A stretch of 64,000 nucleotides of DNA from an uncultured bacterium (lineage in GTDB: Bacteria > CAIJMQ01): positions 7,657-71,656 of the forward strand of contig CAIJMQ010000121.1 of the NCBI GenBank assembly GCA_903821905.1, given 5' to 3'. The notes under the pieces are model-generated. The model was not told the origin of the DNA and did not search any database. It worked only from the letters and a program-made list of their open reading frames with translations. The stretch's first letter is position 1; the number at the start of each line of letters is the position of its first letter. The position numbers and the translations under genes are program-made. Positions 12,717 through 55,984 of the stretch are shown piece by piece.

Positions 12717-15224
12717 CTAATCCATTAAATCCACAATCTTAACTAAAGGTTTCAGAGACCATCTTACTACGGTCTTAAGACGAGGATGTTCTGATATAAA
12801 AGAAGCAATTCTTGGACCTACTTTGTAATATGTTCCAACAAATATCTTTCCTAAAGAATTAGTCAAAAGATAATCATCTCTAAACTCAGATAACACCCTA
12901 ACCTCTCTTGCCATAGGTGTTCCGTAACACGCCGTGGCTATGAAACAACCTGACAGTGAACCGGCACCACCGCCGCCGCCGCCACCACCACCACTACCAT
13001 CACCGCCACTGCCGTCTCCTGTATCGCCCTCTGCCATCGTAGTAATCATACAAGGCGAAGAATAATCCGTATCAATACCGAAAGTATCTACAGCTGTTAC
13101 CCAGTAATAATAAGTGGTCGCAGGAGTAAGAGTACTAATATCGTAAAAATAATTATTCGTTATAACCGCACCGTTAACTTTTTCTTTTATTCCTGTTAAG
13201 GAAGTGCTCCTGTAAACGTTATATCCTGCCAATACAGAACTTACTACGGAATTCCACCTTAGGGACACATATGTTCGTCCTGCTGTGGCTGTAAGACCGG
13301 TAGGAACGCTAATAAGAGAGAACAGAGCTGTATCTTCTACGTCAGCTGGATTACCTGTTCCATCATCAGCATCATGATAAGTCACGGTTATGATATCATT
13401 ATGATGAACCTGAAGTTTTCCATCTGCTGCAGCAGTCCCTACTTCCAAATTGATTGAACCTGTAAAAATACCGGTAGAATTACCTGTTTCGGTCAGGGTT
13501 TTAACTTCAGCAACAGCTTCTGTAGTAGATGTAAATTTCACAGTAGTAGTATCGGGACCACCTGTTGTATTCAAATCACCATCCAAAACAGTAACATTGA
13601 CCACGCCACCAGCAGAGTAAGAATCTCTGTCAAGCCAGACTGAACCAGCACCATTACGGGATAGTGAAACAGCCCATGATGGATTTGTTGTACTTGTATC
13701 TCCGGCATTCATTATAATTAACACTACATTGTCATAAGTATCGTAAGCTAAATCTACATATCCATCCTTGTGAGCGTCCAAAGAGAATGGATGGTCAGTA
13801 CGTATTCCGGCTTTCTCGGTCACTAAGTTCACCGAGTAATCCGTGGTGTTATCAAGTCCATTAAAATAGACCCAGTAATTCGCAACTGCAGGGTCTAATG
13901 CAATGGTAACGTAATCCGTAGCCCATTTGTCCATCCACGCATCATAGTTGACATTAGTGCTGTCTATTGTAAATGGAATTCCGTCTGTAACTGCATCATA
14001 TTGATACTCAAGCCATACTCCATCAAAAGTTGTTCCTGTAAGTTTAGCTCTATAATCAGCTCCGTCAGTATACATATCCTCCAAAAAGAAATTAGCCTCC
14101 GTGAATACATTGAATTCGTCTATAATGCTGGAACCATACCCTCCTAACACAGTGTTTATTGCTGTAAGTCCATCGGTTGTCTGACATTGCTCCCAAATTT
14201 CTTTGATTATAGCATCTCCGCCTCCGCTGAAATCTTCTGATAATCTCTTGGCAAAAATGAAGTTCCCGTATTCGTGTCCTCCATCAAATGTTTCTAAACC
14301 ATAACTGTCGCTGAATTGAAACCAATACGGTAAGTAGTTATAGTTATCATTTACAGCCGGCCAAACAACATCTTCCATATAAGTAGATGTTGTTTCCATC
14401 CACCAGACTTCTTCGTTTGCATCATAACTAAATTGAACTGCATGGAAGAACTCGTGAGCTGCTGTGACCTTCGCTGCTCCATCAGCAGGAATAGGGTCAT
14501 CATTTGGCGGCGCCCAACTATAACTCTTATTTACCGCAATATAACTGTAGGAAGGGGTTGCAGGAGATTGCTCAGGGCACGTGTATCCATATAATCCAGT
14601 ACCCAAGTCATAAATATAGACATCATATTTTCCATCCCCGCCATTGTTGGATGCAGCCAAATCGCTTGGCGGCGCATTATATCCCAAATTGGTCACTTCC
14701 TCAGTATAAGCAGTTTCAAAATAGCTGGATATTTTTGTGGCATAGGCAAGTGTAACGGCATTTGCTCCTGAGGTGTTGTAGTGTACTATGAAATGTGCAG
14801 AAGGGAAAGTTGAAGGGAAAGTGTCAACAATGCTGCCCTCACATATTAAACCATCATCCGGCCTTAGAAGAATATTACATTGCAGAATATCCTGTGTTTC
14901 TTGACTTAATTTATTCCAGTTCTTTTTTATCTCCAAGATTGTCGGCGTGCCGCTTTTTCTAAACTTCGCATCCTCGGCAGATAACACATATTTCGTGCCG
15001 GATAACTTTTCCGGTTTAAACACCGCCCACGCCTTGTTTAATATGTATTCGTCAATCGTTATTTTTTGGGCTTTATAATCCGCCTGAATTCTCTCTACGG
15101 CACCAACCTTATTCCGGCTTTTAAGTGTTTCCGCTCCGGTGGGGGCAACTACTGCAAACATTGAAAACAATACTGTTAAAACCAACGCTATGCTTAAAAC
15201 TTTTTTCTTATTTATTCTTTCCAT
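12717..15224 (-). CDS. Secreted zinc metalloprotease with FN3 and CFI-box C-terminus (MXAN_6640-like)
   Basis: This 835-residue protein has a signal peptide (residues 8-31, cleavage near TGA-ET). The catalytic region contains AAHEFFHAVQF with HEFFH at 257-261. WWMETTSTYMED follows, and E277 could be the third zinc ligand, as in gluzincin-type secreted proteases of the MXAN_6640 group. Next come a beta-sandwich domain (about 535-640, DSYSAGGVVNVTVLDGDLN) and a fibronectin type III domain (about 645-735). A glycine-rich linker leads to a 77-residue CFI-box domain from residue 759 (GCFIATACYGTPM). It is the last gene of the protease operon. Export by a type II-like system is my inference. Confidence 0.83.
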   Translation of the reverse strand: MERINKKKVLSIALVLTVLFSMFAVVAPTGAETLKSRNKVGAVERIQADYKAQKITIDEYILNKAWAVFKPEKLSGTKYVLSAEDAKFRKSGTPTILEIKKNWNKLSQETQDILQCNILLRPDDGLICEGSIVDTFPSTFPSAHFIVHYNTSGANAVTLAYATKISSYFETAYTEEVTNLGYNAPPSDLAASNNGGDGKYDVYIYDLGTGLYGYTCPEQSPATPSYSYIAVNKSYSWAPPNDDPIPADGAAKVTAAHEFFHAVQFSYDANEEVWWMETTSTYMEDVVWPAVNDNYNYLPYWFQFSDSYGLETFDGGHEYGNFIFAKRLSEDFSGGGDAIIKEIWEQCQTTDGLTAINTVLGGYGSSIIDEFNVFTEANFFLEDMYTDGADYRAKLTGTTFDGVWLEYQYDAVTDGIPFTIDSTNVNYDAWMDKWATDYVTIALDPAVANYWVYFNGLDNTTDYSVNLVTEKAGIRTDHPFSLDAHKDGYVDLAYDTYDNVVLIIMNAGDTSTTNPSWAVSLSRNGAGSVWLDRDSYSAGGVVNVTVLDGDLNTTGGPDTTTVKFTSTTEAVAEVKTLTETGNSTGIFTGSINLEVGTAAADGKLQVHHNDIITVTYHDADDGTGNPADVEDTALFSLISVPTGLTATAGRTYVSLRWNSVVSSVLAGYNVYRSTSLTGIKEKVNGAVITNNYFYDISTLTPATTYYYWVTAVDTFGIDTDYSSPCMITTMAEGDTGDGSGGDGSGGGGGGGGGAGSLSGCFIATACYGTPMAREVRVLSEFRDDYLLTNSLGKIFVGTYYKVGPRIASFISEHPRLKTVVRWSLKPLVKIVDLMD
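12784..12950 (-). repeat. CFI-box coding repeat, copy 1
   Basis: This 167-bp stretch, coding for the conserved core of the CFI-box domain of the metalloprotease, is closely similar at DNA level to 16121-16287, with differences mostly at third codon positions and no length change. It marks a duplication or gene conversion inside the operon. Confidence 0.8.
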
Positions 15225-15229
15225 AATTT

Positions 15230-15997
15230 TTACCTCGGTCCGGCAGGAACAACCTGCTCATATTTTGTTCTATTAATTAAATTTGGACTTACCTCTCCTT
15301 TATTTTCTACCTTTACGGAATAATGCGAGATGATAATATCTTGCGGTGAAGGAATCCTGGGATATGAATTTACCCGTGTTGCCGTATAACAATCCAATAA
15401 ATAATAAGAATTCTCTTTTTTTATTTCCAGACGGGTAAAATCCTCCGGTTTAATATTATATTTCTCTTTTGCCTCATCTGTCCATAATCCCAAATGTCTT
15501 TTTGTAAATATCTCCTCATCCTGTGCAGAAGAAGATAACCCATATAATTTCAGATATATTTCAAATAAATTAATAACGTCTCTGTCTTTCTCCGGGCTGA
15601 TGTTTTTCCCGTAATTTTCCAAAAATTTATTGAAATCTTCGGGAGATAAAAAATAAATCTTTTCGGAAGTGATTAAAATACAAAAATCGGGATTTATTCT
15701 AACAAGCCAATGTTCAACAGGAATAGACGGATATTTATAACGGTATCCTATTTGATATTTCTTGTTCCAATCTTCCCCATATTTTTTATTTAAAGCAAAT
15801 TTTGCGGTTTCAGCAGAGTCATTAATATTATAAGGATTGGACAAAGAATCGAAATTACTTGTTGTGACAGACCCCTTTACATCCGGGACTGCACTGCTTT
15901 TGCTTGAACATCCCGCCAAACAACCTACTCCCATGAATATTATTATCCCTATGATGCAATTTTTAATAGCACAGTTTAATATCTTCCTTTGAAGCAT
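15230..15997 (-). CDS. Putative lipoprotein of unknown function
   Basis: This 255-residue protein has a type II signal peptide: a hydrophobic stretch at residues 14-28 and lipobox LAGC ending at C30. The mature protein begins with serine residues (SSKSS), so outer-membrane sorting is plausible. The rest is charged and rich in aromatic residues, for example KYGEDWNKKYQIGYRYKYPSIPV and EHWLVRINPDFC. I do not recognise a family. It sits between the C25-fold gene (35 bp upstream) and the metalloprotease gene (5 bp downstream), so it may help localise or chaperone the two secreted proteins. Confidence 0.75.
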   Translation of the reverse strand: MLQRKILNCAIKNCIIGIIIFMGVGCLAGCSSKSSAVPDVKGSVTTSNFDSLSNPYNINDSAETAKFALNKKYGEDWNKKYQIGYRYKYPSIPVEHWLVRINPDFCILITSEKIYFLSPEDFNKFLENYGKNISPEKDRDVINLFEIYLKLYGLSSSAQDEEIFTKRHLGLWTDEAKEKYNIKPEDFTRLEIKKENSYYLLDCYTATRVNSYPRIPSPQDIIISHYSVKVENKGEVSPNLINRTKYEQVVPAGPR

Positions 15998-16032: not shown

Positions 16033-19000
16033 TTAGTCATTCTTTTCTCGGGAAACCACCAACTTTTCCGAAAAATACACTATCGGTTTCAACCCTGCTC
16101 TTACAAATTCTTTAAGTAAAGGATGTTCTGATATAAAAGAAGCAATTCTTGGACTTACTTTGTAATATGTTCCGACAAATATTTTCCCCAACGAATTAGT
16201 TATCAAATACTCATCTCTAAACTCGGATAACACTCTAACCTCTTTCGCCATAGGTGTTCCGTAACACGCCGTGGCTATGAAACAGCCGGATAGCTTGCCA
16301 ACTCTACCGCCGCCGCCACCATTGGTGCCGGTGTCAGTGCCATCTCCGCCGCCATCGCTAGTTCCACCTCCGCCTTCATCTTCCCCTGCCCCGGTATATG
16401 CCGGGGTTCCAAGCCAGGCAAGAATCGCAGTCATAACTCCGCTTCTGATGTGCTGATCGGAAATTGCTTCAAAACCCCAAGGTAAAAACACACTGGCACC
16501 CCGTCCCTGATAATAAGCTGTTCCTGCGGTTCCGAAGAAAGGCGTATCTCCTATACTACCTTCTATAGTATCAGGTCTTCCTCCGCCGGAAAAATCGTAT
16601 TCAAATATCTTTCTTACAATAGGAGTATCGGTTTCCGGTTCAGCATCAACAAATAAAAATTGGTTCTGGGCACCGTAAGGTCCTGCAATATCAATACCGT
16701 AATTATCGTCTATTACAGGATTTCCAGAAATACTCTTTAGTTGTGTTAAATTTCCATATCCTAATGAAGAATAAACGTCGCTAATATGCATATAGCCGGT
16801 TAGAAACGTATTCAGTATCGAACTGGTATCATTCTTTCTTTCACACCAATATGCATTTTCTGATCTACCTGCACAACCCAAATCCAAGAGGATACCTTGA
16901 CCAGATAAGAACAGCCGACCTGCATGATTATCCAGATAATCTTCTAAAAGAGCTTGTTCCGGTCCAGTAAGCGTCTCTGTCATCCATATCGGGGTATCAG
17001 GAATATCATCATCATAAAAATAGGGACGCCAGTATCCGTTATAATCACCGGTCAGCCATATAACTTTATCATAATTATCCAGAAGGCCATTGTAGATTTC
17101 ACCGTTCATTAAAGCATCGCCAGCATCTGTACCACCCCAAGCATCATCTTTTCCGGGATAGTGTGTCAGAGTATCATCAAAATCTACGTGCCAAATATCA
17201 TAGGATTGCCCCAAATCATCAAGCGTCTTCAGATACCAGTCCTCATAACCATAAACAATATTACTTGGTACCGCAGAAGTAATATCAATCATAGCATTAA
17301 AATAATATGAAATAAGAGGATAACCGAAATCATCATCTACAACTAAAATACCGGTATTAGTAGGAGTAAATTCATTCACTTCCTGAACATAAATCCAGCT
17401 TTCTTTTTCCCACCAGGTGCCCCAGTTAGAGGCAAGATTATCATATCCCGGCTGTTCGACCTTTACAAAATAATATCCGGGGACAGTATTTAAAGTAGAG
17501 AAAGTATAATCTGCAGGTGAAGCAGGTGCAGGAAAATCTATTCCTATATCTCTTCTTATATCCATCCTCGTTATTTTTACCGGCGGAATTGAAGAGCCTA
17601 CCGGTCTTCCAGGTGTTGTTATACCTACAGTAGTGACTGCAGAGCCGCCGGTCGGTATTTCATCTACTCCTATATCGTGTGATTCGTATTGAGGCAACTT
17701 AGTCCTTAAATTACTAAGAGCTAAACTTGGCGCTGAAGTCTGTGTTTCTATCGGTGTAAGTTGAGGATATGGAATCGGCAAAGCAGGGTCTCCGAATAAT
17801 GTATATTCCCAAACTGTTTTCTGGCTTATGAAATGAGTCATATCGTTATTTTCTATAAAAGAATTAATAGGGCCTTGTGCTAATCCCCCAGGCACAGTCG
17901 GGGAACCGTAAACCAAATCGCCTATGTATTTGGGGGCATTATTGAAACTTCTCATCGTATAGCTCAACAACTCATCCATATCAAAAAGTCTATCCTGATA
18001 TAACACACCGTTATCGAAGAAAGGAATAATTCCTTGCCAGGCGGAACTAGTTAAACCGATATATGCTATACCTCCGCCTGTGGGAGATTCAACCACCGCT
18101 TCTCCAAAGGAAGGAGTGTTTCTGTCAAATCCTCCACTGCCACTGTTTCCATGACTGTACATACCTGCATTAGAAACCACAATCGGTATCTTGGAATCTG
18201 ATGAAGTGTAGCCCAAAACATCGTCTCTATCTATGCGGCTGCCATCAAAGATTAAAGTAGTATCAGTTCCGTATCCCAATTCAAAAAGAAGACCGCAATC
18301 GGTATCATTAAGATAAGGAGCCACTGAAATGTCATTAAAATCATTACCCGCTACACCATCATTCCAATTTGTATGTCTAAGTTTCGTAATGTTGTTACCT
18401 TCAAAAAAACCTTGATTGGTAATATCAGCAAGGACAAACTCATCCCAGAAAGCAAATACGCTCGGGTGAGAATCCCCTCCTGCAGTTACAACTTTTCTGA
18501 ACCAATTAGACCATGCATTAGGAACCGCAACAGCGGTAAGGTAATTGTTACATTTAGTAAATATAGCTTGTGCCTCGACTAAACCGTTATCGTGTATCTC
18601 GTATCCGTCACCAGGTATAGGATGTGTAGTATCCGAAAGATCTTCGGCTTCCAAACCAACAGCAGACGGATCACCCAAAACCAGAAGACAGGTATCCGTA
18701 TTATCTAAAATTTGGTAAGTAGCACCAATAGGAGCTGCAGTACCAGTGCCACCAGCAGTCGCAGGGGGATTGCCATCAGAAACTATCCACAATTCATCAC
18801 CTACCCATCCACTAGCAACCCATGTTTTAGTACTATCACATACATCACACTCATCGAAATTATAAGGGTTAAGACCTGTATCAGGTATAGCAGTAATCTC
18901 CGTAACGGTTCCGCTATCTTCAACAGGGAGAAGGTCATGAACGGGTATTCTCCCGACTCTCAAGTTCGGTACCCAGTCTATTCCACCACCAGTACTACCA

Positions 19001-19713
19001 CCATAATCAGGCGACGCATAGAAAAAATCGGTGGGAAACCAAGTGCCATCGCCGAAAGGATATCCGGGATACGCGCTAAAATTCATCCATACATACCAGC
19101 TTTCCGGGACACCGTTGAAAGTCATAGCTCCACCGCTACCGGCACCGGTTTCACCCAAGAGAAGCAGATATAGAAATTTGGGATGATTAATGCCGCCGTT
19201 ATTAAAATCCCAGCTGTTCAGGGGTATAAAAGCACCTGTAGCATCCTGAAGTATATTAAAAGCATATACATAATCGTCTATGCCGTTTGTTTGAGTTCCA
19301 TCGGGTAAACCTTCCGTTTTTAGTTGAAGCAACCCTCTTAATAATTTAACAATACAGAGATTGGGAAGGGGAGTCATTCCGGGAGGAGGATAATCGAACC
19401 CTGTAGGAATTAATGTAGGAGTAGCGGGAACAGGCGGTGGGTCTGCAGGAGAAGGTTCGAGTACACCCGAAGGCAAGTTATCGTAAGCGGCAACTATATT
19501 CTCTACTGTAACATAAGCTCCGTACATTGGTTTTGCTTGACCTACGTCTCCAGCATTTTGATGCATTGTAAGAAAACTTTGGGCTACTGTTTCAAATTTT
19601 GCGGACGTTATAATCAAAAGTTCATAGTCATAGGCTTTAACGATAGTAGAAAAAGAAAATAGAATAAGTAAACCCAAAGAAAATTTTATTAACAAAAATC
19701 TATTTTTCGTCAT
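16033..19713 (-). CDS. Gingipain-like (peptidase C25 fold) secreted protein with CFI-box C-terminus, catalytic residues apparently lost
   Basis: This 1226-residue exported protein has a signal peptide ending near VKA-YDY (residue 27). Residues 28-650 follow the C25 plan: YELLIITSAKF at the start, the VGRIPVHD segment (253-260), and FGDPALPIP at about 640-648, which matches the usual end of the caspase-like domain. Where gingipains have GHG (catalytic His) this protein has G480-Y481-G482, and where they have the nucleophile Cys it reads VVSNAGM (N515, A516), so it is probably not a working cysteine protease. A second alpha/beta domain follows (about 780-1110), then an acidic and glycine-rich linker and a CFI-box (1143-1226). 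Its start overlaps the upstream propeptide gene by 4 bases. Confidence 0.82.
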   Translation of the reverse strand: MTKNRFLLIKFSLGLLILFSFSTIVKAYDYELLIITSAKFETVAQSFLTMHQNAGDVGQAKPMYGAYVTVENIVAAYDNLPSGVLEPSPADPPPVPATPTLIPTGFDYPPPGMTPLPNLCIVKLLRGLLQLKTEGLPDGTQTNGIDDYVYAFNILQDATGAFIPLNSWDFNNGGINHPKFLYLLLLGETGAGSGGAMTFNGVPESWYVWMNFSAYPGYPFGDGTWFPTDFFYASPDYGGSTGGGIDWVPNLRVGRIPVHDLLPVEDSGTVTEITAIPDTGLNPYNFDECDVCDSTKTWVASGWVGDELWIVSDGNPPATAGGTGTAAPIGATYQILDNTDTCLLVLGDPSAVGLEAEDLSDTTHPIPGDGYEIHDNGLVEAQAIFTKCNNYLTAVAVPNAWSNWFRKVVTAGGDSHPSVFAFWDEFVLADITNQGFFEGNNITKLRHTNWNDGVAGNDFNDISVAPYLNDTDCGLLFELGYGTDTTLIFDGSRIDRDDVLGYTSSDSKIPIVVSNAGMYSHGNSGSGGFDRNTPSFGEAVVESPTGGGIAYIGLTSSAWQGIIPFFDNGVLYQDRLFDMDELLSYTMRSFNNAPKYIGDLVYGSPTVPGGLAQGPINSFIENNDMTHFISQKTVWEYTLFGDPALPIPYPQLTPIETQTSAPSLALSNLRTKLPQYESHDIGVDEIPTGGSAVTTVGITTPGRPVGSSIPPVKITRMDIRRDIGIDFPAPASPADYTFSTLNTVPGYYFVKVEQPGYDNLASNWGTWWEKESWIYVQEVNEFTPTNTGILVVDDDFGYPLISYYFNAMIDITSAVPSNIVYGYEDWYLKTLDDLGQSYDIWHVDFDDTLTHYPGKDDAWGGTDAGDALMNGEIYNGLLDNYDKVIWLTGDYNGYWRPYFYDDDIPDTPIWMTETLTGPEQALLEDYLDNHAGRLFLSGQGILLDLGCAGRSENAYWCERKNDTSSILNTFLTGYMHISDVYSSLGYGNLTQLKSISGNPVIDDNYGIDIAGPYGAQNQFLFVDAEPETDTPIVRKIFEYDFSGGGRPDTIEGSIGDTPFFGTAGTAYYQGRGASVFLPWGFEAISDQHIRSGVMTAILAWLGTPAYTGAGEDEGGGGTSDGGGDGTDTGTNGGGGGRVGKLSGCFIATACYGTPMAKEVRVLSEFRDEYLITNSLGKIFVGTYYKVSPRIASFISEHPLLKEFVRAGLKPIVYFSEKLVVSREKND
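16121..16287 (-). repeat. CFI-box coding repeat, copy 2
   Basis: Second copy of the repeat at 12784-12950, in the C25-fold gene. The two copies share long identical runs, for example the segment coding for ATACYGTPMA. The proteins outside this domain are unrelated. Confidence 0.8.
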
Positions 19714-20456
19714 TTTTTATTCTCTCCACGACTCTTGGTGGATTGATAGTTGACTGTTATTTCCGCATCGGTAATAAGTATTGCGCGGTTTGAATTAGGG
19801 ATATACTGCATAGGGAAAAATTTGATGAATACATATCGGTTATTGTTATCTTGTCCAGTAGAATAGGAAACTAAATTGCCAGGGAAGAAAGATTCTGAGT
19901 CACATGTCTTGCATTTGTTATAACTCTTATTTTCGTTTTTCCCGGTTGTGGTTTGTTTTCCGCCAGAAGTTTTAATTTGTTTTTCAGTATCGGCAGTTTG
20001 TTTTACTTTCTGCGTTTGTGTAACAGGCATAGGATTAGCAACAATATTCAATTTGTTCAAAATAGGTCTGTAAGAAACGCTGCTGACGCTTACTCCCGAA
20101 ACTTCGCTGTTTATAGGTAAAGTGACTACGAATGACTTGAAAGGAAGCATTGGCTCGCCCGGATTGCCGTAAGGTTTTAAACCTTCTACCCTCACATAAT
20201 CTTTGCCTTTTACATTATTAAGTGAAGTTTGAGCTGTATCCAAGCTGAAATGCAGTATTTCTGTTTGTCCTCCTATACTGCGGACACTGCCTTCTGCGGA
20301 TTTGGAAGTTAAAACGCCCGTGCCCTCCATACTGGATATTACAGGGCCAAAAAATAGTGTTTTTGGGGGATTATTTTCAGCAAGAATGTAAGAACCGGCA
20401 GAAAGGAAAAGGAGAATTACCGTACAACCCAATAAGAACAATTTTTTATTTTTCAC
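19710..20456 (-). CDS. Stand-alone gingipain-type propeptide-like secreted protein
   Basis: This 248-residue protein begins at a GTG with a moderate ribosome site (AAGGAT) and carries its own signal peptide (residues 5-26). The mature part resembles the N-terminal propeptide of C25 proteases. It has the GNPGEPMLPFKSFVVTLP segment (about residues 91-108) and, near the end, YVFIKFFPMQYIPNSNRAILITDAEITVNY, which matches the propeptide's closing strands. In known gingipains this domain is fused to the protease and acts as inhibitor and chaperone; here it is a separate gene overlapping the C25-fold gene by ATGA. A low-complexity polar stretch (about 145-190) separates the two conserved parts. Assignment is by pattern, not a profile search. 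Confidence 0.72.
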   Translation of the reverse strand: MKNKKLFLLGCTVILLFLSAGSYILAENNPPKTLFFGPVISSMEGTGVLTSKSAEGSVRSIGGQTEILHFSLDTAQTSLNNVKGKDYVRVEGLKPYGNPGEPMLPFKSFVVTLPINSEVSGVSVSSVSYRPILNKLNIVANPMPVTQTQKVKQTADTEKQIKTSGGKQTTTGKNENKSYNKCKTCDSESFFPGNLVSYSTGQDNNNRYVFIKFFPMQYIPNSNRAILITDAEITVNYQSTKSRGENKK

Positions 20457-20516: not shown

Positions 20517-20569
20517 ACTGAAGATTTTAGAACTAAAAGTCCATTTTGTCAACAATTTTCTTCAGTTCT
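20517..20569 (-). other. Alternative hairpins in the protease operon leader
   Basis: ACTGAAGA (20517-20524) is the exact complement of TCTTCAGT (20559-20566). AGAACT (20529-20534) is the complement of AGTTCT (20564-20569). The right-hand arms overlap, so only one stem can form at a time in the transcript. This could be a regulatory leader, but short AT-rich repeats of this kind also arise by chance. Confidence 0.3.
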
Positions 20570-20582: not shown

Positions 20583-20598
20583 TGCAACTTGCGTGCCA
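20583..20598 (-). promoter_or_regulatory. Sigma-54 promoter of the secreted-protease operon
   Basis: The minus strand reads TGGCACGCAAGTTGCA. It matches the sigma-54 consensus TGGCACG-N4-TTGCA at every defined position, with GG and GC separated by exactly ten bases. Transcription would begin near 20572, about 115 bases before the GTG of the propeptide gene. Sigma-54 promoters need an NtrC-type activator, and one with an intact GAFTGA loop is encoded at 58235-59632. Confidence 0.82.
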
Positions 20599-20619
20599 TT
20601 TAATGTCAACTTCAACTTA

Positions 20620-20640
20620 ATGAACTTAAAAAATGTTCAT
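20620..20640. promoter_or_regulatory. Dyad ATGAAC-N9-GTTCAT upstream of the sigma-54 promoter
   Basis: A perfect 6-bp inverted repeat with a 9-bp spacer lies 22 bases upstream of the -24 element. It could be a binding site for an additional regulator. There is no second copy at the pilin promoter, so the link to sigma-54 control is weak. Confidence 0.35.
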
Positions 20641-20700
20641 ATATAGTTACCTTAACCGAATTTTTTGTACTTACCACTTTTCTTTATGAGTTTTTGAATG

Positions 20701-20718
20701 TGTGAATATTATCTCACA
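20701..20718. promoter_or_regulatory. Putative activator site TGTGA-N8-TCACA (protease operon)
   Basis: TGTGAATATTATCTCACA is an 18-bp dyad centred about 112 bp upstream of the -24 element, a normal enhancer distance for sigma-54 activators. The same arms and the same 8-bp spacer recur at 57159-57176 upstream of the other sigma-54 promoter. The arms resemble a CRP site, but CRP sites have a 6-bp spacer between these five-base arms. Confidence 0.6.
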
Positions 20719-20809
20719 ATTGCGAGCTATTGGTTACACTCTAACCCTTCACACTCTGCGAGGTCAGATGACAGAAATCAGAAACCAGATTTTTTATCTG
20801 TTCTCTGTC

Positions 20810-30094: not shown

Positions 30095-30994
30095 TTAAGA
30101 GAAAAGAGTTGGTTCAACTTCTTTCTTAAATTTTTTAAATTCTAAGCCTTCAAATATTCTGTTCAACAAAGCCCAGTCTGGAATTGTAACCATTAATTCA
30201 TCGACACTTACTTCTACAGGTACGTTTTTATCCAAAATGAGCAGTTTTTTATTATTTAATGCGATGTTGAAATTGTTCTCTAAACTGGTTCCTACTTTTT
30301 TGTTTTTAATTCTCTCTTTAGAGGAAACCACATCTTCCAGAAAGCCAAACTCATTGAGAAGTTCCTTAGCAGTTTTTTCCCCTATTCCAGGAACTCCGGC
30401 TATATTATCTACCGAATCACCAATTAATGCAAGTAGGTCCGGAATTTTTTCCGGCAAGACACCGAATTTTTCTCTAACTTCCAAAGGCCCAAACAAATTA
30501 TCTTCTTTAGAAGAGTTTAAAACATTTATTTTATCAGTAACTATCTGGAGCATGTCTTTATCTGAAGTAACAATTAGTATCTTATCAAAATCATCTCTAA
30601 ACTTAGAAGCCAAGGTTGCAAGTATGTCATCGGCTTCGTACCCGTCCGCCTGCAAACATTTAAGATGAAAAGCATCCAGTATCTGGCTAATTCGTGGCAG
30701 TTGGCGATGTAAATCATCTGGCATTGGAGGACGATTTTTCTTGTAGTCGGCAAACTGATAATGTCTGAAAGTAGGAGTTTTGCTGTCAAAACAAATTGCC
30801 ATATATTTTACATTCTTCTTATTAAGTAGCGACAACAGCATTTTTGTGAACCCATAAATAGCGCCTGTAGGAAAACCTTCTTTCGTAGTAAATTTAGGTA
30901 AAGCATGAAAAGCACGATAAATATAGGAACTTGCATCCAACAGATAAAGTTCTTTAATTGATTTGGTCACTATCAAACTTCTAACTTTTTGCAA
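30095..30994 (-). CDS. Stand-alone 5'-3' exonuclease (DNA polymerase I N-terminal domain type)
   Basis: This 299-residue protein equals the 5' nuclease domain of Pol I and ends before any proofreading or polymerase domain. The metal-binding acidic residues are in YLLDASSYIYRAF, CFDSKTPTFRHY, DGYEADDILATLA and VTSDKDMLQIV. The helix-hairpin-helix is ALIGDSVDNIAGVPGIGEKTAKELL. It should remove RNA primers and flaps. The stop is followed by coaE, not a Klenow part, so the protein is genuinely separate within this window. The ATG overlaps the secretin gene by 14 bases; a GTG at about 30970 is an alternative start. Confidence 0.9.
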   Translation of the reverse strand: MQKVRSLIVTKSIKELYLLDASSYIYRAFHALPKFTTKEGFPTGAIYGFTKMLLSLLNKKNVKYMAICFDSKTPTFRHYQFADYKKNRPPMPDDLHRQLPRISQILDAFHLKCLQADGYEADDILATLASKFRDDFDKILIVTSDKDMLQIVTDKINVLNSSKEDNLFGPLEVREKFGVLPEKIPDLLALIGDSVDNIAGVPGIGEKTAKELLNEFGFLEDVVSSKERIKNKKVGTSLENNFNIALNNKKLLILDKNVPVEVSVDELMVTIPDWALLNRIFEGLEFKKFKKEVEPTLFS

Positions 30995-32189
30995 AGAAGG
31001 GGTTACCTTGCGAATCTAAAACATGTACGGTTATGAAAATCAATAGATGTTGCCTATCTACGCTGTTTATTTTTTCCTGGAAAAAAGCTTTCCCGATAAT
31101 AGGTATATCACCAAGGAAAGGAACTTTAGAAATTAATTCTGTGGTTGCCTCATTCATCAATCCCCCAAGAACAATAGTAGTTCCATCATGTACATTAACA
31201 TTGGTAGTAGCATCTCTACTGGTAAAAGTTGGCGGGGTAATTGTAATCGGCGCTTGACCAGTTATTTGAGATATAATGTAAGAAGTTGTTCCTGCCTGCA
31301 TTTCACTTACTACAGGTTGCAAGAATAATCTGACAGATTGTGTAGGACGAATTACAGTAGGACTTACATATAAAACTATCCCAACATCGCGGTCTATAAA
31401 AGTCCAGTCATAAGTAGTAGTTGTTGTTGCTGTTGTCGTTGTTGTGCCCTCAGTGGCTGCTGAAGAAACATCAACACTATCTACATACCGAACGGTCGTC
31501 ACAAATCTTACATCTGCCGGTTCATTATTCAAAGTTGTTACTGTAGGTGCAGATAGAAATTTGGTATCTGCTCTGGTAGAAAGCATACGAAGTGTTGCTT
31601 GAAGCTGTGGATAATTAAAAGCTTGATAGGTCAGTTGTAAACCACCAGTACTACTACCAGTAGGAGCTGATACGCCCGATGTAATAGAACCACTAATTGT
31701 GTCGTAAGACCAGGCCGTACCCGCAATACCAGAATATCTCTCGTCTCTTCCAACAGGATTTGCCCAACTAAAAGATAAGGGGGTTACATCACCCCATTCC
31801 AACCCCAAATCCCTGAATGTTTTTTCTCCGACAATAATAAATTTTGCCTCTATAGCAACTTGAGGGGGAACAGTAAGGTCTTTTAGAAATTCATCTATCT
31901 TTTTTAAATTTGATGGGGTATTCCTAACTATTAATTGATTCTGACCTGGGAGAAGTGTAATTGAAGAACCTGGAGGTTGAGGAACAAGTTGATTAAGAAC
32001 CGCTACAATATCCATGTCTGAGGTTCCAGCACCTGTTCCTGTAGCAGCTGTAGTTCCAGCAGCTGTAGTTCCAGCTGCAGCAGGTGCCGCTGCTCCTCCA
32101 CCAACACCTACTTCTTGACTAAAAGTTTTTTCCATAGGAAGAATTATCAAAAAAGCTATTATAAATGTTAATGCTAACTTTCTATTCAT
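30981..32189 (-). CDS. Secretin, C-terminal pore-forming part (GspD/PilQ-like)
   Basis: This 402-residue outer-membrane protein has its own signal peptide (residues 4-25, TFSQEV). An Ala/Gly/Thr-rich linker follows (28-58), then one N1-like domain (ITLLPGQNQLIVRNTPSNLKKIDEFLKDL) and the secretin beta domain from about residue 108 (VPPQVAIEAKFIIV). The family signature VPFLGDIPIIGKAFF is at 356-370. No N0 (STN) domain is present; that domain is in the next gene upstream (32265-33899). It forms the outer-membrane channel for pilus or secreted proteins. Confidence 0.92.
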   Translation of the reverse strand: MNRKLALTFIIAFLIILPMEKTFSQEVGVGGGAAAPAAAGTTAAGTTAATGTGAGTSDMDIVAVLNQLVPQPPGSSITLLPGQNQLIVRNTPSNLKKIDEFLKDLTVPPQVAIEAKFIIVGEKTFRDLGLEWGDVTPLSFSWANPVGRDERYSGIAGTAWSYDTISGSITSGVSAPTGSSTGGLQLTYQAFNYPQLQATLRMLSTRADTKFLSAPTVTTLNNEPADVRFVTTVRYVDSVDVSSAATEGTTTTTATTTTTYDWTFIDRDVGIVLYVSPTVIRPTQSVRLFLQPVVSEMQAGTTSYIISQITGQAPITITPPTFTSRDATTNVNVHDGTTIVLGGLMNEATTELISKVPFLGDIPIIGKAFFQEKINSVDRQHLLIFITVHVLDSQGNPFFAKS

Positions 32190-32264
32190 TGGTTATACCC
32201 CTCTGTTTATTTTTTTCCTTTTTATTAAATTTTTTATAATTATTTATATATTTATAACAGCAAA

Positions 32265-33899
32265 TTAATTTCCACTGCTACTGTTGCTGCTTCCTCCGGA
32301 ACTATTCGATTGTCCGAATGTAATTGTGCTAAGCTGCATTGGAGTTGGTTGAATCTGCCCGTTAATAGTTGAACCAGACTGTAAGTCAAAAATTCTAGTT
32401 TCCAATGCTTCCAATGGGACATTATCAAGCCTATCTCTTGTGGATATCCAAATAACGTTGGGGTATATTTCATAGTCTAAACCTTTTGGACGAAGTACCA
32501 AGGATAAAACATCAGAAAGTGGCATATCACGCAATGAAGCAGTAATATTATAGGTTTTCTCTGGGGTTGCAGTGGTTGTTGCTCCTACTGCTCCACCAAC
32601 TACTCCAGCACCACCTCTTGCTGCACCACCACCTCCACCAGCTCCAGGCGGTCCACCAACTCCAGCACCACCTCCTGCTGCTACACCTCCAACCCCAGCT
32701 GTAGGTGCTGCTTCAAATATAGCTTCATCAATCATCATATTTATACCGCTCTGTTTTGAAAGAAATAATATAACAGATCTTAAATCAGCACCAGTAAATT
32801 CCAGAGAAACCTTTTTCTCTTTGGCTTTCTTTGTGATTTCTTCTATAGCAAGAGCTTCTTCATCTTCTACTGTTTTTCCCTTCTTTTCTTCTTTTACTCC
32901 ACCAACAACAGGCACATAAGCTTCATCAACTTTTAACCATTTCTTTTCTCTTTCGGCTTTCTCTTTTTCTACATCGACTATACGTTCTGCTTTTGCCTTA
33001 GAAACTTCTGCTTGAGAAATAAGTATTTCTATACCTGGGTAATCCTCTTTTTCTTTTAAAACTTGTCCCCATATTTCAATTGCCTTATCGTATTCTTTAT
33101 CTCTTAAATATTCCTTCCCTTTATTTACCATATTTTCTAGTTTCTCGGCATTATCTGTTTTCGCTCCAAACAATTTCATTTCTTCTGCAAGCTCCATATA
33201 CTTTATTGCTTCTGTATCTGTGGGATTTATAGCAAGTATTTTTTTGAGTTCATTAATAGATTCGTCATATTGTTTACTGCGATAGTATCTTTTAGCATTA
33301 TCCCAATATTCTCTCATTTGTCCTGTTCTTTCTAATGTTTCTTTGATGTCTGCGTTCTTCTTGGATTTCTCCATTGCAATTTGGGTTTTTTCTATATATG
33401 CAATAGCATCTTTGTCCTTGGGATTAATTACAAGGATTTTATTAAACTCAAAAAGCGCTTCTTCATATTTCTCCTGTTCATAATAGGAGGTACCTTTATC
33501 TATATATGTTTTCTTTTTCTGTTCCTTTTCAAATTGAATAATGTTTTGTTTCAATTCTGCTGTCTTCTTGGATTCTTCTTCACCTTTAATTATTGTATCT
33601 TCTGTCAATGCTTTCTTTTTATTGGCCATCTCATCGCTGCGAGCTATTATGCCCTTAATTTCCTCTGTCATTCCCGCAGGTGCGATTTTCAAAGCTTCTT
33701 CAAATTTTGACTTAGCTTGTTCAAATGCATTCAACTGTAAATATTCAAAACCTTCATCCAAAAGATTTTTCACCTGTTCCAGGTTTTCAGTTTCAGACTG
33801 CTGTTTTGTCTCTTCTTGTGCATAGACATAAATTGTACCTGAAAACATCAGAAGTACAAGAAAACACCCCACAAATCTTTTATTTTTTAGGATATTCAT
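32265..33899 (-). CDS. TPR protein with secretin N0 (STN-like) domain
   Basis: This 544-residue exported protein (signal peptide residues 8-27) has about four TPR units (roughly 40-290), including YIDKGTSYYEQEKYEEALFE. A charged segment follows, then a secretin N0-like domain split by a glycine/alanine-rich insert. The first half is VSLEFTGADLRSVILFLSKQ (about 362); the second half, ITASLRDMPLSDVLSLVLRP to IWISTRDRL, follows the insert (about 400-445). N0 domains normally start the secretin polypeptide and contact the inner-membrane platform. Lying 75 bp before the secretin gene, it looks like the detached N-terminal part fused to a TPR scaffold, and could also act as a pilotin or assembly factor. 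Confidence 0.8.
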   Translation of the reverse strand: MNILKNKRFVGCFLVLLMFSGTIYVYAQEETKQQSETENLEQVKNLLDEGFEYLQLNAFEQAKSKFEEALKIAPAGMTEEIKGIIARSDEMANKKKALTEDTIIKGEEESKKTAELKQNIIQFEKEQKKKTYIDKGTSYYEQEKYEEALFEFNKILVINPKDKDAIAYIEKTQIAMEKSKKNADIKETLERTGQMREYWDNAKRYYRSKQYDESINELKKILAINPTDTEAIKYMELAEEMKLFGAKTDNAEKLENMVNKGKEYLRDKEYDKAIEIWGQVLKEKEDYPGIEILISQAEVSKAKAERIVDVEKEKAEREKKWLKVDEAYVPVVGGVKEEKKGKTVEDEEALAIEEITKKAKEKKVSLEFTGADLRSVILFLSKQSGINMMIDEAIFEAAPTAGVGGVAAGGGAGVGGPPGAGGGGGAARGGAGVVGGAVGATTTATPEKTYNITASLRDMPLSDVLSLVLRPKGLDYEIYPNVIWISTRDRLDNVPLEALETRIFDLQSGSTINGQIQPTPMQLSTITFGQSNSSGGSSNSSSGN

Positions 33900-33902
33900 T
33901 CT

Positions 33903-35966
33903 TCAATTCTCCCTTTCCAAGATTTTCTCACTTTCATTTATTTTATTTTTAATTTGTTCCATTAACTGGGTTATGCTCTTTTCTAATTCGCTGTTTCCAA
34001 GTTCTTCAGTTACCTTCATTTTTGCACTATCTTCTTTTATGTTATTACTCTCTATGAATTGATGACTTTCCTGAGATTGCAATTCAACTCTTCTTGGTAA
34101 ATCATTCTTGTGAATAAAAGAGTTTACATCGCTTTCTATAGTTTTTACTACTTGTTCCTTTATCTGGGGAGAAGCCATTCCCACCGCATCCTTGAAAATT
34201 GATTCTGCTTTATCAAATTGTCCTTCTGCTAAATATTTCATTCCATTATCTATTACTACCTTTACCTTATCAAATTGTTGTTTGTTTTTATACTCGTCTC
34301 TTGCTTTTTCCACCAAATCAAGAGAAGAAAGTGCTTCCGAATACGTTGGATTCAAATTTAATACTTCTTCAAACTTTGCTTTAGCTAAGTCAAATTTATT
34401 ATCTTTCAAATACTCTTTACCTTCTGTCATCATTGTCTGCAATCTGGACTGATTAGCTTCTTCTTGGGATTTATCAAGCCGTTTTAACCATTCTTCGGCT
34501 TCAGAATAATCCGGTTTAACAGATAATGCCTTTTCAAAATTAGTTCTTGCTTTAGCATATTGATTCTTATTAAAATTATCTACGCCGCTAGCTATATATA
34601 CATCCGCTTGTTGTTGGAGCTTTCTATTATATATATTTTGTTTTGTCTTATCAATGTCATCCAGAAGAGTTTGAATCTCAGTTTGCTTATCTCCTGATGA
34701 AGCTATTTTCAACGCTTTTCTGAAAATTGCATCTGCTTTATCCAACTGTTCTGCTTCTAAATATTTTTTACCTTCAGTTATTAATCCTTCTATAACTCCT
34801 TTACTCTCATAATCCTTTTTTGCTTGTTCGGTTTCAGATAAATACTGCAGTACAAGTTCATTCCCTGGTCTAATTTGTAACGCCTCTAAAAATTTTTTCT
34901 TAGCTTCTTCAAAATTATTTGCAGTTAGGTATTCTTTTCCCCGTTTTATTAATTCGCCCAACTTGTTCTCTTCAATCTGTTGTTTTGCTTCGGATACAAT
35001 ATTTTCTATTCTTCCAAGGTTTGCGCCTGCCTGATATTTTTGTTTCAATTCAGGGACAGAAGCAAGTAATGATTCTATTTCCCCCCTTCTCTTTTTCTCC
35101 TGGGGTAACAAAAGTTTAAGAGCTTCATTAAGACCAGTTTCTGCTTCTTCAAACCTGCCCATCTTGAGATTGTTTTTTCCTTCTTCTATTTTACTATCAA
35201 TATTTGCAAGTAAATCTTTATCTTCTTTTGCCTGTCTTAATTTTTCAATCTTCTCTAAGTAACCCTGAGCTTTACTGTTGTCGGGTTGTAGTGTCAATAC
35301 TTCCTTTAATCCTTTCTCTGCTTCATCAAATGCCTCCATATTAATATTATTGCTTGCTTCTTCTAAAAGGTTCGATATGTGTTCAGCATTCATGCGGCGG
35401 CGTGCATTGCCTACTCGTACAAGTCCATCTTTAGCTTTACGATTATCTGGAAAAATATCAAGCGCTTTATTAAAACTGGATTCTGCCCCATCAAGATTAC
35501 TTGATTTTAAATATTCAAATCCTTGCATGATATAATTTTCAGATTCTTCTTTAGATTTTTTACCTTCATTTTTCTCTTGAAGTATTGCTATTTCTTTTAA
35601 AGATTGGGAAATTTTAATAGATATTTTCCCAAGAGAAGATGCTTCTCGGTAATAGATTTTAGCACTATTGTTTTTATCTTCAGAAACGAGGTTCTGCGCT
35701 TTATTTCCATATGAAGAAATTTGCTCGTTTACCAAATTCAAAGTGTTTTCTAATTCTTTCTTGGCTTTATCTGGTTCCTTGTTTTTGATAAATAGATTTG
35801 CTGCTTCAATAGACTTTTTTGTTTGTTCTTCAAAATTACGGATTAACGATATTTCTTCAGAACTAATACCGTTATCTGAATTATTACAATAAATATTTAT
35901 TACTGGAAATAACCCAGACAAAACAAATAAAAATAAAATTATCAAAAACGTTTTTTTAAAGTTCAT
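33903..35966 (-). CDS. TPR-repeat periplasmic protein
   Basis: This 687-residue protein has a signal peptide (residues 5-27) and about eight TPR-like units between residues 130 and 600. Each follows the pattern G-x-x-Y-L-x(4)-F-D/E-x-A-x-x-x-F-x-x-A-L-x-x-x-P, for example YIASGVDNFNKNQYAKARTN. No lipobox is seen (the only early cysteine is in NIYCNN). It lies between the GspC/PilP-like gene (4-base overlap) and the TPR-N0 gene (3 bp gap), so it probably scaffolds pilus or secretion assembly, comparable with PilF/PilW or Tgl-like helpers. That role is inference. Confidence 0.78.
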   Translation of the reverse strand: MNFKKTFLIILFLFVLSGLFPVINIYCNNSDNGISSEEISLIRNFEEQTKKSIEAANLFIKNKEPDKAKKELENTLNLVNEQISSYGNKAQNLVSEDKNNSAKIYYREASSLGKISIKISQSLKEIAILQEKNEGKKSKEESENYIMQGFEYLKSSNLDGAESSFNKALDIFPDNRKAKDGLVRVGNARRRMNAEHISNLLEEASNNINMEAFDEAEKGLKEVLTLQPDNSKAQGYLEKIEKLRQAKEDKDLLANIDSKIEEGKNNLKMGRFEEAETGLNEALKLLLPQEKKRRGEIESLLASVPELKQKYQAGANLGRIENIVSEAKQQIEENKLGELIKRGKEYLTANNFEEAKKKFLEALQIRPGNELVLQYLSETEQAKKDYESKGVIEGLITEGKKYLEAEQLDKADAIFRKALKIASSGDKQTEIQTLLDDIDKTKQNIYNRKLQQQADVYIASGVDNFNKNQYAKARTNFEKALSVKPDYSEAEEWLKRLDKSQEEANQSRLQTMMTEGKEYLKDNKFDLAKAKFEEVLNLNPTYSEALSSLDLVEKARDEYKNKQQFDKVKVVIDNGMKYLAEGQFDKAESIFKDAVGMASPQIKEQVVKTIESDVNSFIHKNDLPRRVELQSQESHQFIESNNIKEDSAKMKVTEELGNSELEKSITQLMEQIKNKINESEKILEREN

Positions 35967-36688
35967 TCTTTTATACGTTGGGACTCGCCCCCACTCTTCA
36001 ATTCGTATTTACCAGAATCTGATCTGGAGATTATAACTTTATTTTCATCAATACTCAATATCTTCCAACCTTCAACTTCATCTCCTGCGTTTGCAAAATA
36101 GGTCTTTTTTGTACTATCGTTTTGCAACATTGCTTGAAACCCTTTCTCTATAGGCATAATACCTGTTAATTTGAAAGGCATTATTACAATCGAAGGTATC
36201 AATCGATATTGCTTCACTTCGTCACTAAGTATAACAACATCCCGAGTAATAGACACCACTGTAAAATTCTCCACCTTGTCGCCGACTTTAGCTTTATAAG
36301 TATTGCCTGTTTGAGAATTTCCAAAAGTAGCGGTAAGAATACCTTCGGCATCAGAAACTACTCCAGTACATCCCAAATTCATCTGAGATGTAGCCGACCC
36401 TGATTTTTTAACATCCGTTGGAAAAAACATGTTTTTATCAATTAATGGCTGGTATTGTGAAAAATCTTTCTTAATTAAGTAGGTACCAAAGTTCGGTTCA
36501 TAAGGAGGAGGGGGATTAAGAGTTGTCCCTCCAGTTGGTTGTATTTTTATTTTGAAATCCTCAATTGCCTTGTTTCTATCTACCCCAGAAAATAAACGGA
36601 CTGCTGTAATTATCAATATAACTAAAAGGAGACCAAGAACTAATTTTTCATAATTTTCTTTAATCCACACTAATAGTTTATTAGACAT
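35963..36688 (-). CDS. GspC/PilP-like inner-membrane protein with two HR-type domains
   Basis: This 241-residue protein has one membrane helix (about 15-33) and a proline-rich linker. Two similar small beta domains follow: LGCTGVVSDAEGILTATFGN (about 105-165) and FKLTGIMPIEKGFQAML (about 172-235). Each contains a KVGD or NAGDEVEGW turn, as in the GspC homology region and PilP. Such domains bind the N0 domain of the secretin and bridge the two membranes. Two copies in tandem are unusual for this size of protein. It is the fourth component of the platform operon and overlaps the TPR gene by 4 bases. Confidence 0.75.
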   Translation of the reverse strand: MSNKLLVWIKENYEKLVLGLLLVILIITAVRLFSGVDRNKAIEDFKIKIQPTGGTTLNPPPPYEPNFGTYLIKKDFSQYQPLIDKNMFFPTDVKKSGSATSQMNLGCTGVVSDAEGILTATFGNSQTGNTYKAKVGDKVENFTVVSITRDVVILSDEVKQYRLIPSIVIMPFKLTGIMPIEKGFQAMLQNDSTKKTYFANAGDEVEGWKILSIDENKVIISRSDSGKYELKSGGESQRIKE

Positions 36689-36733
36689 TATTTTTTCAAC
36701 TTGGTCTTTATTCTTAATAAAGGAAATAATATA

Positions 36734-37564
36734 TCACGATTTCCCCCATCTGATTACGGATAGTCTTAATTGTACCTGTATCTTTTTTCCCCCTACAGAT
36801 CCAGTTTTAACAGTTCCCAATGTTTCCGATCTGGTTTGATCTTGAAAACGTCCTGCCCGAGGATCCATTGAAGCATCAGATATTCCTGTCATTTCTTTGC
36901 CTTCTATTATCGACGAGAGGGAAAAGTTCTTTACTATAAAAAATCCCTGGTCGGTATTTTCCAATGTAAATAAAAGTTTTGCTAAAGAAAGGATATCGCA
37001 TTTCACACTCAGGATTAATGGTATCTCCTCATACATGTCTGTTTTCGTTATTTCCCCCAACCCTATACTGTCTATTGAACTCACTCCTGTATCAATTAAC
37101 AAATTAACAATCATTTCAGTAAGGTATAGATTTTTTATTAGTTGGGGTGCTCCTTGGTCGGTCGGTAGACTATTATCTAATCCTAAACCTTCAGTAGTAA
37201 TTTCGATTCCTTTTTCTTTAGCTTTAGTTCCAATCCGCTCTTTTGTATTTTTTAATTCTTCCATAAAAAACAGAGATAAATTAACACCTTCCGGAATAGA
37301 TGACTCTTTTGCCACAGGTAAACTCTCTCTAATTTTTTTATATTTATCTGCTAATACAATGTTGTCTTTTTCCATGGCACTAATCAATTCGTCGGAAGGA
37401 AGATTGCCTGCGGAATAAATTTGTTGAAGCGTACTCTCTTTTTCTTTAAGCATTTTATTAGTTTCATTGTTATTTTTTAATAATAAATATCCAAACAAAG
37501 AAAATAATAAGACTATAATAAGCAAGGTTATTATATATGGCAATCCTTGTTTTAACATAGTCAC
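36734..37564 (-). CDS. pilO: PilO-like type IV pilus inner-membrane protein
   Basis: This 276-residue protein has one N-terminal membrane helix (residues 9-29), a coiled coil (33-90) and a periplasmic ferredoxin-like region. LTEMIVNLLIDTGVSSIDSIGLGE and LILSVKCDILSLAKLLFTLENTDQGFFIV are of PilO/GspM type. It overlaps the PilM-PilN gene by 4 bases, matching the pilMNO order of type IV pili. In most T4P systems PilO is shorter (about 200 residues); here the extra length is in the middle and tail. Confidence 0.78.
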   Translation of the reverse strand: MTMLKQGLPYIITLLIIVLLFSLFGYLLLKNNNETNKMLKEKESTLQQIYSAGNLPSDELISAMEKDNIVLADKYKKIRESLPVAKESSIPEGVNLSLFFMEELKNTKERIGTKAKEKGIEITTEGLGLDNSLPTDQGAPQLIKNLYLTEMIVNLLIDTGVSSIDSIGLGEITKTDMYEEIPLILSVKCDILSLAKLLFTLENTDQGFFIVKNFSLSSIIEGKEMTGISDASMDPRAGRFQDQTRSETLGTVKTGSVGGKKIQVQLRLSVIRWGKS

Positions 37565-39432
37565 TTCCCAATAACTATTTCAAGTGTAAATTTAACTTCT
37601 TCTTCTTTATCAACTGTTGCTTCTGCTGCTGATGTAGTCCCTCTGGCTCCTTTGACCGGTCCCCTAATTCCTTCTGTTGTAGCAGATCGACCTCCCGAGC
37701 TATCTGATGTAGATACTACAGAAGTTATTCCTACAGTTTTAAATAAAGGTGAAGTCTTTAACTTGTTAATATACTCATCAACCGTAGGATAAGAAGCAGT
37801 AGTCCCACTTAAAGATATTTTATCTGTTAATAATATGTTTCCATTTCCTTCTGGTAAGGGAGTTCCCGTATTCGGATTTTTTCCTCCAGTTGGCATAGTT
37901 CTGGGGTCAATAGGAACACCCTTAGAATTTCCTTCGGTATTCATTGCGGGCACTCTTCTATCTTCGCTTGGATTTGTTCTAACAGCACCTCTTACTCCTG
38001 TTGTTTCTCTCCCTGTTTCCAATGCTCCTGTAGTTATCTCCGTTATAGATATACTTGAAGGAGTAAGTTTAGAAATCTCAAGAAGTATTTTGGACAACTG
38101 CGATTTTTGTTTTAGAATCACTTCAATATTTTGAAATTTACTGATAATCTGTTGTCTCTCATTCTTCAATTCTTCAGCCTTAGACACATAGGGCTTGTAA
38201 TTTTTAAGAATCGGCTCAATCATATCAATTTTTTCTTTTGTTAAATTATAGCTTCTTGTACCCAAAACCAATATGATCCAACCTATCAAAAATATCATAA
38301 CAAAAGAAGAAATAAAGTATAACCTTTTATCCGCCAACTGTCTCTTGCTTAGTAGTTTCGGAGGCAATAGATTTATCTCAATTGAAAAATGCTTCAATGC
38401 CCTAAGAGCTAATCCAGTAACAACACAAAAATTACTTGCACTATCGGTTAGCTTAGCAGGGTCATAAGCTATTTTATTAAACGGGTTAATTTCTTTCACT
38501 TCAACTCTGAACGAATTTTGCAGGAGGTTTATAAGATTAACATCTTGGGGAAATTCACCCGATATGTATATATATTGAAAGTGAGTTACTTTTTCTACTT
38601 GAGATAAATAGTAATTTGTAGTCCTCTTAATTTCTGCTACTAAATCTTCCCAAACAGAAAGAATTAAAGGAGAAATATCTTTCACGCCTGCTTCCGACGT
38701 TACGTCGGAGCGGGCATACTTTTCAAGAATTTCTTCAGCTTTTTCAATATCCACTCCTTTTGACTCGGCGATTTTCTTAAGTATATTCTTCTTACCTATA
38801 GGCACTGCTCTGGTAAATGCCATTTCTCCCTTATTTTCAATAGAGACGTCAGTATAACTAAACCCGAAATTCACTAAAATTCCAACTTTTTCCTTAGGTA
38901 ACAAATCATTAAAAACAAGACAGTTATGCAAAGCAAGTGATGAAGTGTCTACAACGTCAGGAATTTTATTTATGGAATTCTGCAAAACTTTGAGCAAATC
39001 TTCCACAAAACTTTGTTTTATTGCTGCCATTAGTACTATTACGGGGCCCGGGACTTTACTAACAGGAGAAACTACTTGATAGTCCCATATAACTTCATTT
39101 AAAGAGAAAGGTACCTGCTGTTGAACTTCAAAAGATATTACTTGTTTTAATTTGGAATAGGATACCGGGGGAAGTTTCACTTTTCTTACAAAACTTATCT
39201 GCCCACCAACACCTAAAGAAATCTCATCTTTGGCAGAAGCCAATCCTTCAAAAATTTTAATTATATTAGCAGCTAATAATTTTTTATCGTCTTCTTTATT
39301 ACCTAAAGGAAGTTTTATTGACCTTGCCCCAACCAAAACCACGCCATTAGGGCCTTGGGCAAGTTTTGCTAAATTTATGCGGTCATCCCTGATTTCTATT
39401 CCTATACCTGATTTAGCTCTTCTTTTGGGCAT
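37561..39432 (-). CDS. pilM: PilM-PilN fusion protein of the pilus platform
   Basis: This 623-residue protein has a PilM-like actin fold (about 5-345). Recognisable parts are SGIGIEIRDDRINLAKL, VSYSKLKQVISFEVQQQVPF and IYISGEFPQDVNLINLLQ. A membrane helix at about 374-394 and a PilN-like periplasmic part with coiled coil and ferredoxin-like strands follow. The PilN part is interrupted by a low-complexity Gly/Thr/Pro-rich segment (about 490-545). In classical T4P, PilM and PilN are separate and bind through the PilN N-terminus, so a fusion fixes that contact. It is the first gene of the 19-gene run; no ribosome site is obvious. Confidence 0.83.
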   Translation of the reverse strand: MPKRRAKSGIGIEIRDDRINLAKLAQGPNGVVLVGARSIKLPLGNKEDDKKLLAANIIKIFEGLASAKDEISLGVGGQISFVRKVKLPPVSYSKLKQVISFEVQQQVPFSLNEVIWDYQVVSPVSKVPGPVIVLMAAIKQSFVEDLLKVLQNSINKIPDVVDTSSLALHNCLVFNDLLPKEKVGILVNFGFSYTDVSIENKGEMAFTRAVPIGKKNILKKIAESKGVDIEKAEEILEKYARSDVTSEAGVKDISPLILSVWEDLVAEIKRTTNYYLSQVEKVTHFQYIYISGEFPQDVNLINLLQNSFRVEVKEINPFNKIAYDPAKLTDSASNFCVVTGLALRALKHFSIEINLLPPKLLSKRQLADKRLYFISSFVMIFLIGWIILVLGTRSYNLTKEKIDMIEPILKNYKPYVSKAEELKNERQQIISKFQNIEVILKQKSQLSKILLEISKLTPSSISITEITTGALETGRETTGVRGAVRTNPSEDRRVPAMNTEGNSKGVPIDPRTMPTGGKNPNTGTPLPEGNGNILLTDKISLSGTTASYPTVDEYINKLKTSPLFKTVGITSVVSTSDSSGGRSATTEGIRGPVKGARGTTSAAEATVDKEEEVKFTLEIVIGK

Positions 39433-39524
39433 TTTTCTTATATTATATTAATTTAGAACAAATCACGTGAATATATCAATATTAACAAATATTGGCAAGT
39501 TAGGTCAAGGTGTGAACTACATTC

Positions 39525-39576
39525 ATTAAAGATTGAAAATTACAGATTCAAGTTTGATCATTGAAGAATCTTTAAT
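39525..39576. repeat. Inverted repeat ATTAAAGATT...AATCTTTAAT downstream of the giant gene
   Basis: The 10-bp arms at 39525-39534 and 39567-39576 are perfect complements, with an inner TTCAA/TTGAA pair. It lies 30 bases beyond the stop of the 3569-residue gene and could fold as a terminator-like hairpin, but no U-tract follows on the minus strand. The arm sequence also recurs at 58242-58253 and 61056-61065, so it may be part of a dispersed repeat. Confidence 0.4.
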
Positions 39577-55981: not shown

Positions 55982-55984
55982 AAT

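Follow-up and report, generated by a model that had tools for sequence, protein, structure and literature searches.

Are the pilus operon and the secreted-protease operon in the window, the whole stretch of 64,000 nucleotides analysed here, controlled by one regulator? A preliminary description, made from the letters alone, proposed a single regulon for a pseudopilus and CFI-box proteases. In the genomes searched, the same long control sequence precedes only these two operons, so one pilus-side regulator probably turns on both. Judging from the sequences, this regulator is likely to be a PilS/PilR pair, which would fire the operons for the pilus and for secreted putative proteases through a shared element and two sigma-54 promoters (Table 1).

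The genome that contains the window (G000) comprises 1.30 Mb in 121 contigs and is 84% complete. Conservation within its family (G000 to G003) is not deep, as these are only four genomes, three of them from one genus. The search for the element covered 9.8 Mb, from seven genomes of the class, and all genome-wide searches were pattern searches.

Table 1. Coordinates in the window of the genes and control sequences of the two operons.
Feature	Position	Strand	Remarks
MXAN_6640-family putative metalloprotease, HEFFH motif, CFI-box-CTERM	12717..15224	minus	NF045524, NF041770
255-aa unassigned protein	15230..15997	minus	same operon as proteases
Peptidase_C25 homologue with CFI-box-CTERM	16033..19713	minus	PF01364, NF041770
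First protease operon gene: secreted Propeptide_C25 protein, GTG start	19710..20456	minus	Pfam PF08126
Sigma-70-type promoter TTGACA-N17-TAAAAT	20524..20552	minus	3' of protease sigma-54 site
Protease operon sigma-54 full consensus, TGGCACGCAAGTTGCA	20583-20598	minus	matches TGGCACG-N4-TTGCA throughout
Protease operon sigma-54 promoter core, TGGCACGCAAGTTGC	20584..20598	minus	counterparts TGGCATGTAAATTGC in G003, TGGCATATAAATTGC in G001
Protease operon proximal dyad, TGTGAGATAATATTCACA	20701..20718	minus	in preliminary description; exactly 20 bp from distal dyad
Protease operon predicted 33-bp upstream activator element, AGTGTAACCAATAGCTCGCAATTGTGAGATAAT	20708..20740	minus	26/33 identical to pilin element
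Protease operon distal dyad, TGTAACCAATAGCTCGCA	20721..20738	minus	missed in preliminary description; counterpart of pilin dyad
Remaining pilus gene run: pilins, GspJ- and GspK-like, 3569-aa giant protein, PilM/PilN, TPR proteins, secretin	30981..56629	minus	
First pilin operon gene (T2SSG/N_methyl pilin)	56642..57046	minus	domain matches
Pilin operon sigma-54 promoter core, TGGCATACAAATTGC	57072..57086	minus	one mismatch; kept in G001, G002, G003
Conserved GAGTATAATA, possible sigma-70 -10 element	57133..57142	minus	TTCACA of dyad would be -35, spacing 19
Pilin operon predicted 33-bp upstream activator element, AGTGTGAAGAATAGTTCACATTTGTAAGATAAT	57146..57178	minus	aligned with protease element
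Pilin dyad, TGTGAAGAATAGTTCACA	57159..57176	minus	overlaps last codons and stop of PilS-like gene in G000
PilS-like histidine kinase	57165..58199	minus	
PilR-like activator: receiver, Sigma54_activat, AAA lid, HTH_8, GAFTGA	58235..59686	minus	

Both operons have predicted sigma-54 promoters

Both promoters contain GG-N10-GC within TGGCAYR-N4-TTGCW, and every genome encodes one RpoN. The protease site agrees with the sigma-54 consensus at all defined bases, as originally claimed. G000 has three copies of its exact core, TGGCAC-N5-TTGC, and the two besides the protease promoter both fall within open reading frames; other TGGCA-N6-TTGC sites inspected in this genome are mostly intragenic.

Upstream of the pilin promoter lie genes for PilT-, PilB- and PilC-like proteins, a PilR-like activator, and a PilS-like kinase, and the protease promoter is preceded by a type II secretion gene cluster, GspG-GspM. 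With homologues of pilB, pilC, and pilT next to it and genes for PilM/N and a secretin within it, the pilin operon looks like that of a type IV pilus, and the earlier word pseudopilus was imprecise. The 3569-aa protein encoded within the pilus run (39606-50315, minus strand) has NHL repeats, DUF2341, and laminin-G-like domains and is possibly a giant pilus-associated adhesin.

The two promoters share a 33-bp element

When the sequences 5' of the two operons were locally aligned in the direction of transcription, AGTGTGAAGAATAGTTCACATTTGTAAGATAAT (57178-57146) matched AGTGTAACCAATAGCTCGCAATTGTGAGATAAT (20740-20708) at 26 of 33 positions, with no gap. Among 20,000 dinucleotide-shuffled pairs, 0.08% scored at least as high as this alignment, whose score of 20 includes three further flanking positions. 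The preliminary description had placed dyads at 20701-20718 and 57159-57176, with centres about 112 and 82 bp from the -24 GG; both are present there, and we measured 113 and 83 bp. Pairing these two dyads was a mistake of register, as the homologous registers lie 20 bp apart and the alignment makes the dyad at 20721-20738 the counterpart of the pilin dyad. The idea that both sites occupy the same helix face loses its support with that pairing, since the centres in the corrected register are 50 bp (4.8 turns) apart and the distance of the pilin dyad varies in relatives.

The dyads have arms of 5 bp, a spacer of 8 bp, and a second site at exactly 20 bp, in keeping with NtrC-type upstream activator sites. 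Such sites are inverted repeats of 4-6 bp with spacers of 3-8 bp (PMC3333781), and NtrC-type activators usually have two or more of them (PMC11841059). Tandem sites about two turns apart fit activators of this type (PMC11841059; PMC3333781).

The element is specific to the two operons

The 1.30 Mb of G000 contain three copies of the exact dyad TGTGA-N8-TCACA and none of its reversed control. This count is unremarkable, because about 1.4 copies are expected from base composition; the remarkable part is placement: two of the three precede sigma-54 promoters, and chance would put about 0.0006 copies into 2 x 250 bp of such sequence. Thus, the genome-wide dyad search that had been suggested as a check returned the pilus and CFI-box protease promoters and also a copy in a kinase coding sequence. 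We rejected this third copy as a regulatory site: it encodes CDPFFT in a histidine kinase F-box. Across 60 genomes, counts of the exact dyad were low, scattered, and uninformative alone, and a weight matrix built on only the pilin dyads failed to set the protease site apart.

A 28-bp consensus, allowing at most three mismatches, gave seven matches in 9.8 Mb, all at pilus or protease promoters of G000-G003 (reversed control 0; about 0.2 expected). Both G000 sites and some relatives were known when this consensus was drawn up, and the G000 sites match by construction, so the independent part of the result is the absence of other matches. A composite of sigma-54 site and dyad gave five matches (control 0), at both operons in G000 and G003 and at the pilin operon in G002. 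Across the genomes searched, the specificity of the element is near-absolute, and a motif spotted by eye has become a 28-bp element with almost no false matches. A search of Rfam gave no match, and a search for an IHF site gave one weak match only.

A sigma-54-like promoter at dnaK in G000 (TGGCATAGATATTGC; L257 9403-9417, minus strand), near another enhancer-binding-protein gene, is intergenic but lacks an element of the 33-bp type. An extra sigma-54-like site, TGGCATAGAA(A/G)TTGC, stands 3' of the GspK-like gene in G001 and G002 (L112 7628-7642, minus strand; L114 11533-11547, plus strand) and 5' of the giant gene in G002; no element was found at these sites, and in the window the GspK-like and giant genes are about 33 bp apart without such a site. 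Intergenic DNA of these genomes is filled with dispersed repeats of types GACAGAGGACAGAAGACAG and CTGACTTCTGTCATCTG, as seen in L118 on the upstream side of the C25 operon.

Conservation in related genomes

The order pilR-pilS-element-promoter-pilin is common to G000-G003. In G001, G002, and G003, TGTGCAAAATAGTTTACA starts 228, 118, and 89 bp, respectively, before TGGCATA-N4-TTGC and is positioned 3' of the kinase stop codon; the pilin site therefore cannot be put down to coding constraint. At the pilin promoter of G000, the counterpart of the proximal protease dyad survives by half (TGTAAGATAAT). The protease promoter is kept in G003, where it has two element copies, and in G001. Its distal dyad is conserved in one G003 copy and 2 bp shorter in the second copy and in G001; its proximal dyad retains the TGTGAG half in both genomes but not the other. 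G002 has the pilin site only, and searches there found neither the first gene of the protease operon (propeptide) nor GspL. Loss of the dyad in relatives had been named as grounds for abandoning the original proposal; the exact dyad is indeed not conserved, but the wider element is.

G004 and G005 have the same pilR-pilS-pilin order and a related, conserved dyad, TGTGAG(G/A)AAAAGGTAACA, that overlaps the kinase stop codon; their pilin regions contain no clear sigma-54 site. Evidence for co-regulation is confined to the family, because the G005 protease promoter has neither the element nor a sigma-54 site.

PilR is the best candidate for the activator

The PilR-like protein combines a receiver, Sigma54_activat, a Fis-type HTH, and GAFTGA, as expected for an activator of the NtrC/PilR type, and the adjacent kinase and pilin genes are kept in relatives. 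We propose that the two-component pair (57165-59686, minus strand) senses a signal and that phosphorylated PilR would then bind the 33-bp tandem-dyad enhancer 5' of both sigma-54 promoters. By DNA looping, PilR would contact sigma-54 polymerase and fire both promoters, its targets being the type IV pilus operon that follows the pilR/pilS genes and the putative protease operon beside the type II secretion cluster. We infer PilR as the binding protein, activation by its binding, and the looping step.

A strong sigma-54 interaction domain marks four activators of G000, PilR and three others, and three of the four belong to family-wide orthologue groups. One of the others could bind the element while PilR acts elsewhere; two groups that serve as examples (G000:C6/G001:C40/G002:C10/G003:C97 and G000:C7/G001:C4/G002:C6/G003:C15) are kept in the four family members with GAFTGA intact. 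Two lines of evidence make PilR the better candidate and this alternative an unlikely one. First, only pilR adjoins the element, and it does so in every family member, whereas the genes for the other two activators in G000 sit by purA/LpxD-like genes and by grpE/dnaK, which has its own sigma-54 site. Second, the PilR proteins of these genomes have in common the recognition helix SRRH(L/F)Y(D/E)K, which differs from those of other activators. The poor conservation of the second dyad half-sites counts against the proposed mechanism.

Alternatively, sigma-70-type promoters could drive most transcription, with the element an operator for a repressor or other regulator and the sigma-54 sites secondary. 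Three species keep TTGACA-N17-TA(A/T)AAT 3' of the sigma-54 site at the protease operon, G003 and G001 in the perfect form TTGACA-N17-TATAAT; GAGTATAATA is likewise conserved beside the pilin element, where TTYACA of the dyad precedes it by 18-19 bp. We consider this reading improbable as a whole, because the sigma-54 core is kept at all seven promoters of the pilus and protease operons in the family, stands immediately 5' of the ribosome-binding site at the pilin operon, and has there a sigma-70 competitor with poor spacing. The sigma-70-like promoters might nevertheless carry much of the transcription of both operons. Binding of the dyads by a CRP/FNR-type regulator is most improbable: their TGTGA...TCACA arms equal the CRP half-sites, but the spacer is 8 bp rather than the 6 bp of TGTGA-N6-TCACA, a core AATAG and a tandem partner at 20 bp are conserved instead of an exact palindrome, and the dyads lie upstream of sigma-54 promoters.

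At glnALG of E. coli, a single activator works on promoters of both the sigma-54 and the sigma-70 type (PMC3870243). It is conceivable, albeit doubtful, that one activator here fires the sigma-54 promoters and shuts or reshapes the sigma-70 promoters at both operons, so that a change of sigma factor at exactly two promoters would switch the lineage from a basal to a surface-active state. The sigma-70-like site of the protease operon is 3' of the sigma-54 site, in contrast to glnALG (PMC3870243), and any repression by the activator here would be hypothetical.

Relation to known systems

PilS/PilR-sigma-54 control of pilins in Pseudomonas, Myxococcus, and Geobacter likewise involves genes for an NtrC-type regulator and a kinase beside pilus genes and a sigma-54 promoter with upstream sites before the pilin gene, and the PilR/sigma-54 mechanism itself is textbook knowledge. 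The element described here is not known to match a published PilR site. Also unlike those systems, the same site precedes a protease operon, and the host lineage is small and uncultured. Another parallel in architecture is NmpR of Myxococcus xanthus, with two tandem dyads 5' of sigma-54 promoters and one promoter within the preceding kinase gene, but the NmpR dyad is GCGCA-N5-TGCGC rather than TGTRA-N8-TYRCA and the target set differs (PMC11841059). More broadly, governing the cell exterior is a recurring role of sigma-54 (PMC3162934). The proposed regulon is precise and testable, for a lineage known from metagenomes only.

Proteins of the protease operon

The shared element links type IV pili to CFI-box-CTERM exoproteins encoded beside type II secretion genes and offers a handle on the purpose of CFI-box proteins. 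Two proteins of the operon, the C25 homologue and the metalloprotease, score above the NF041770 cut-off for CFI-box-CTERM. Five such genes are present in G000, and these two alone stand behind the element. One regulon for pilus and proteases is well supported by the 33-bp element, its conservation, and its specificity, but the wider link to CFI-box proteins in general is not supported.

The name proteases is itself secure only in part. The metalloprotease keeps HEFFH, but the G000 C25 homologue, by alignment, lacks the catalytic pair of a gingipain-type C25 cysteine protease (the His of GHG and a Cys). The G001 protein has both GHG and Cys; at these positions the G000 homologue shows GYG and lacks the Cys, and thus may not be an active protease. 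The homologues of G003 and G005 also align without the Cys, and a PDB sequence search with the C25 protein returned nothing useful. In G000 and G003 the C25 propeptide has its own gene; in G001 and G005 it shares a single long frame with the peptidase.
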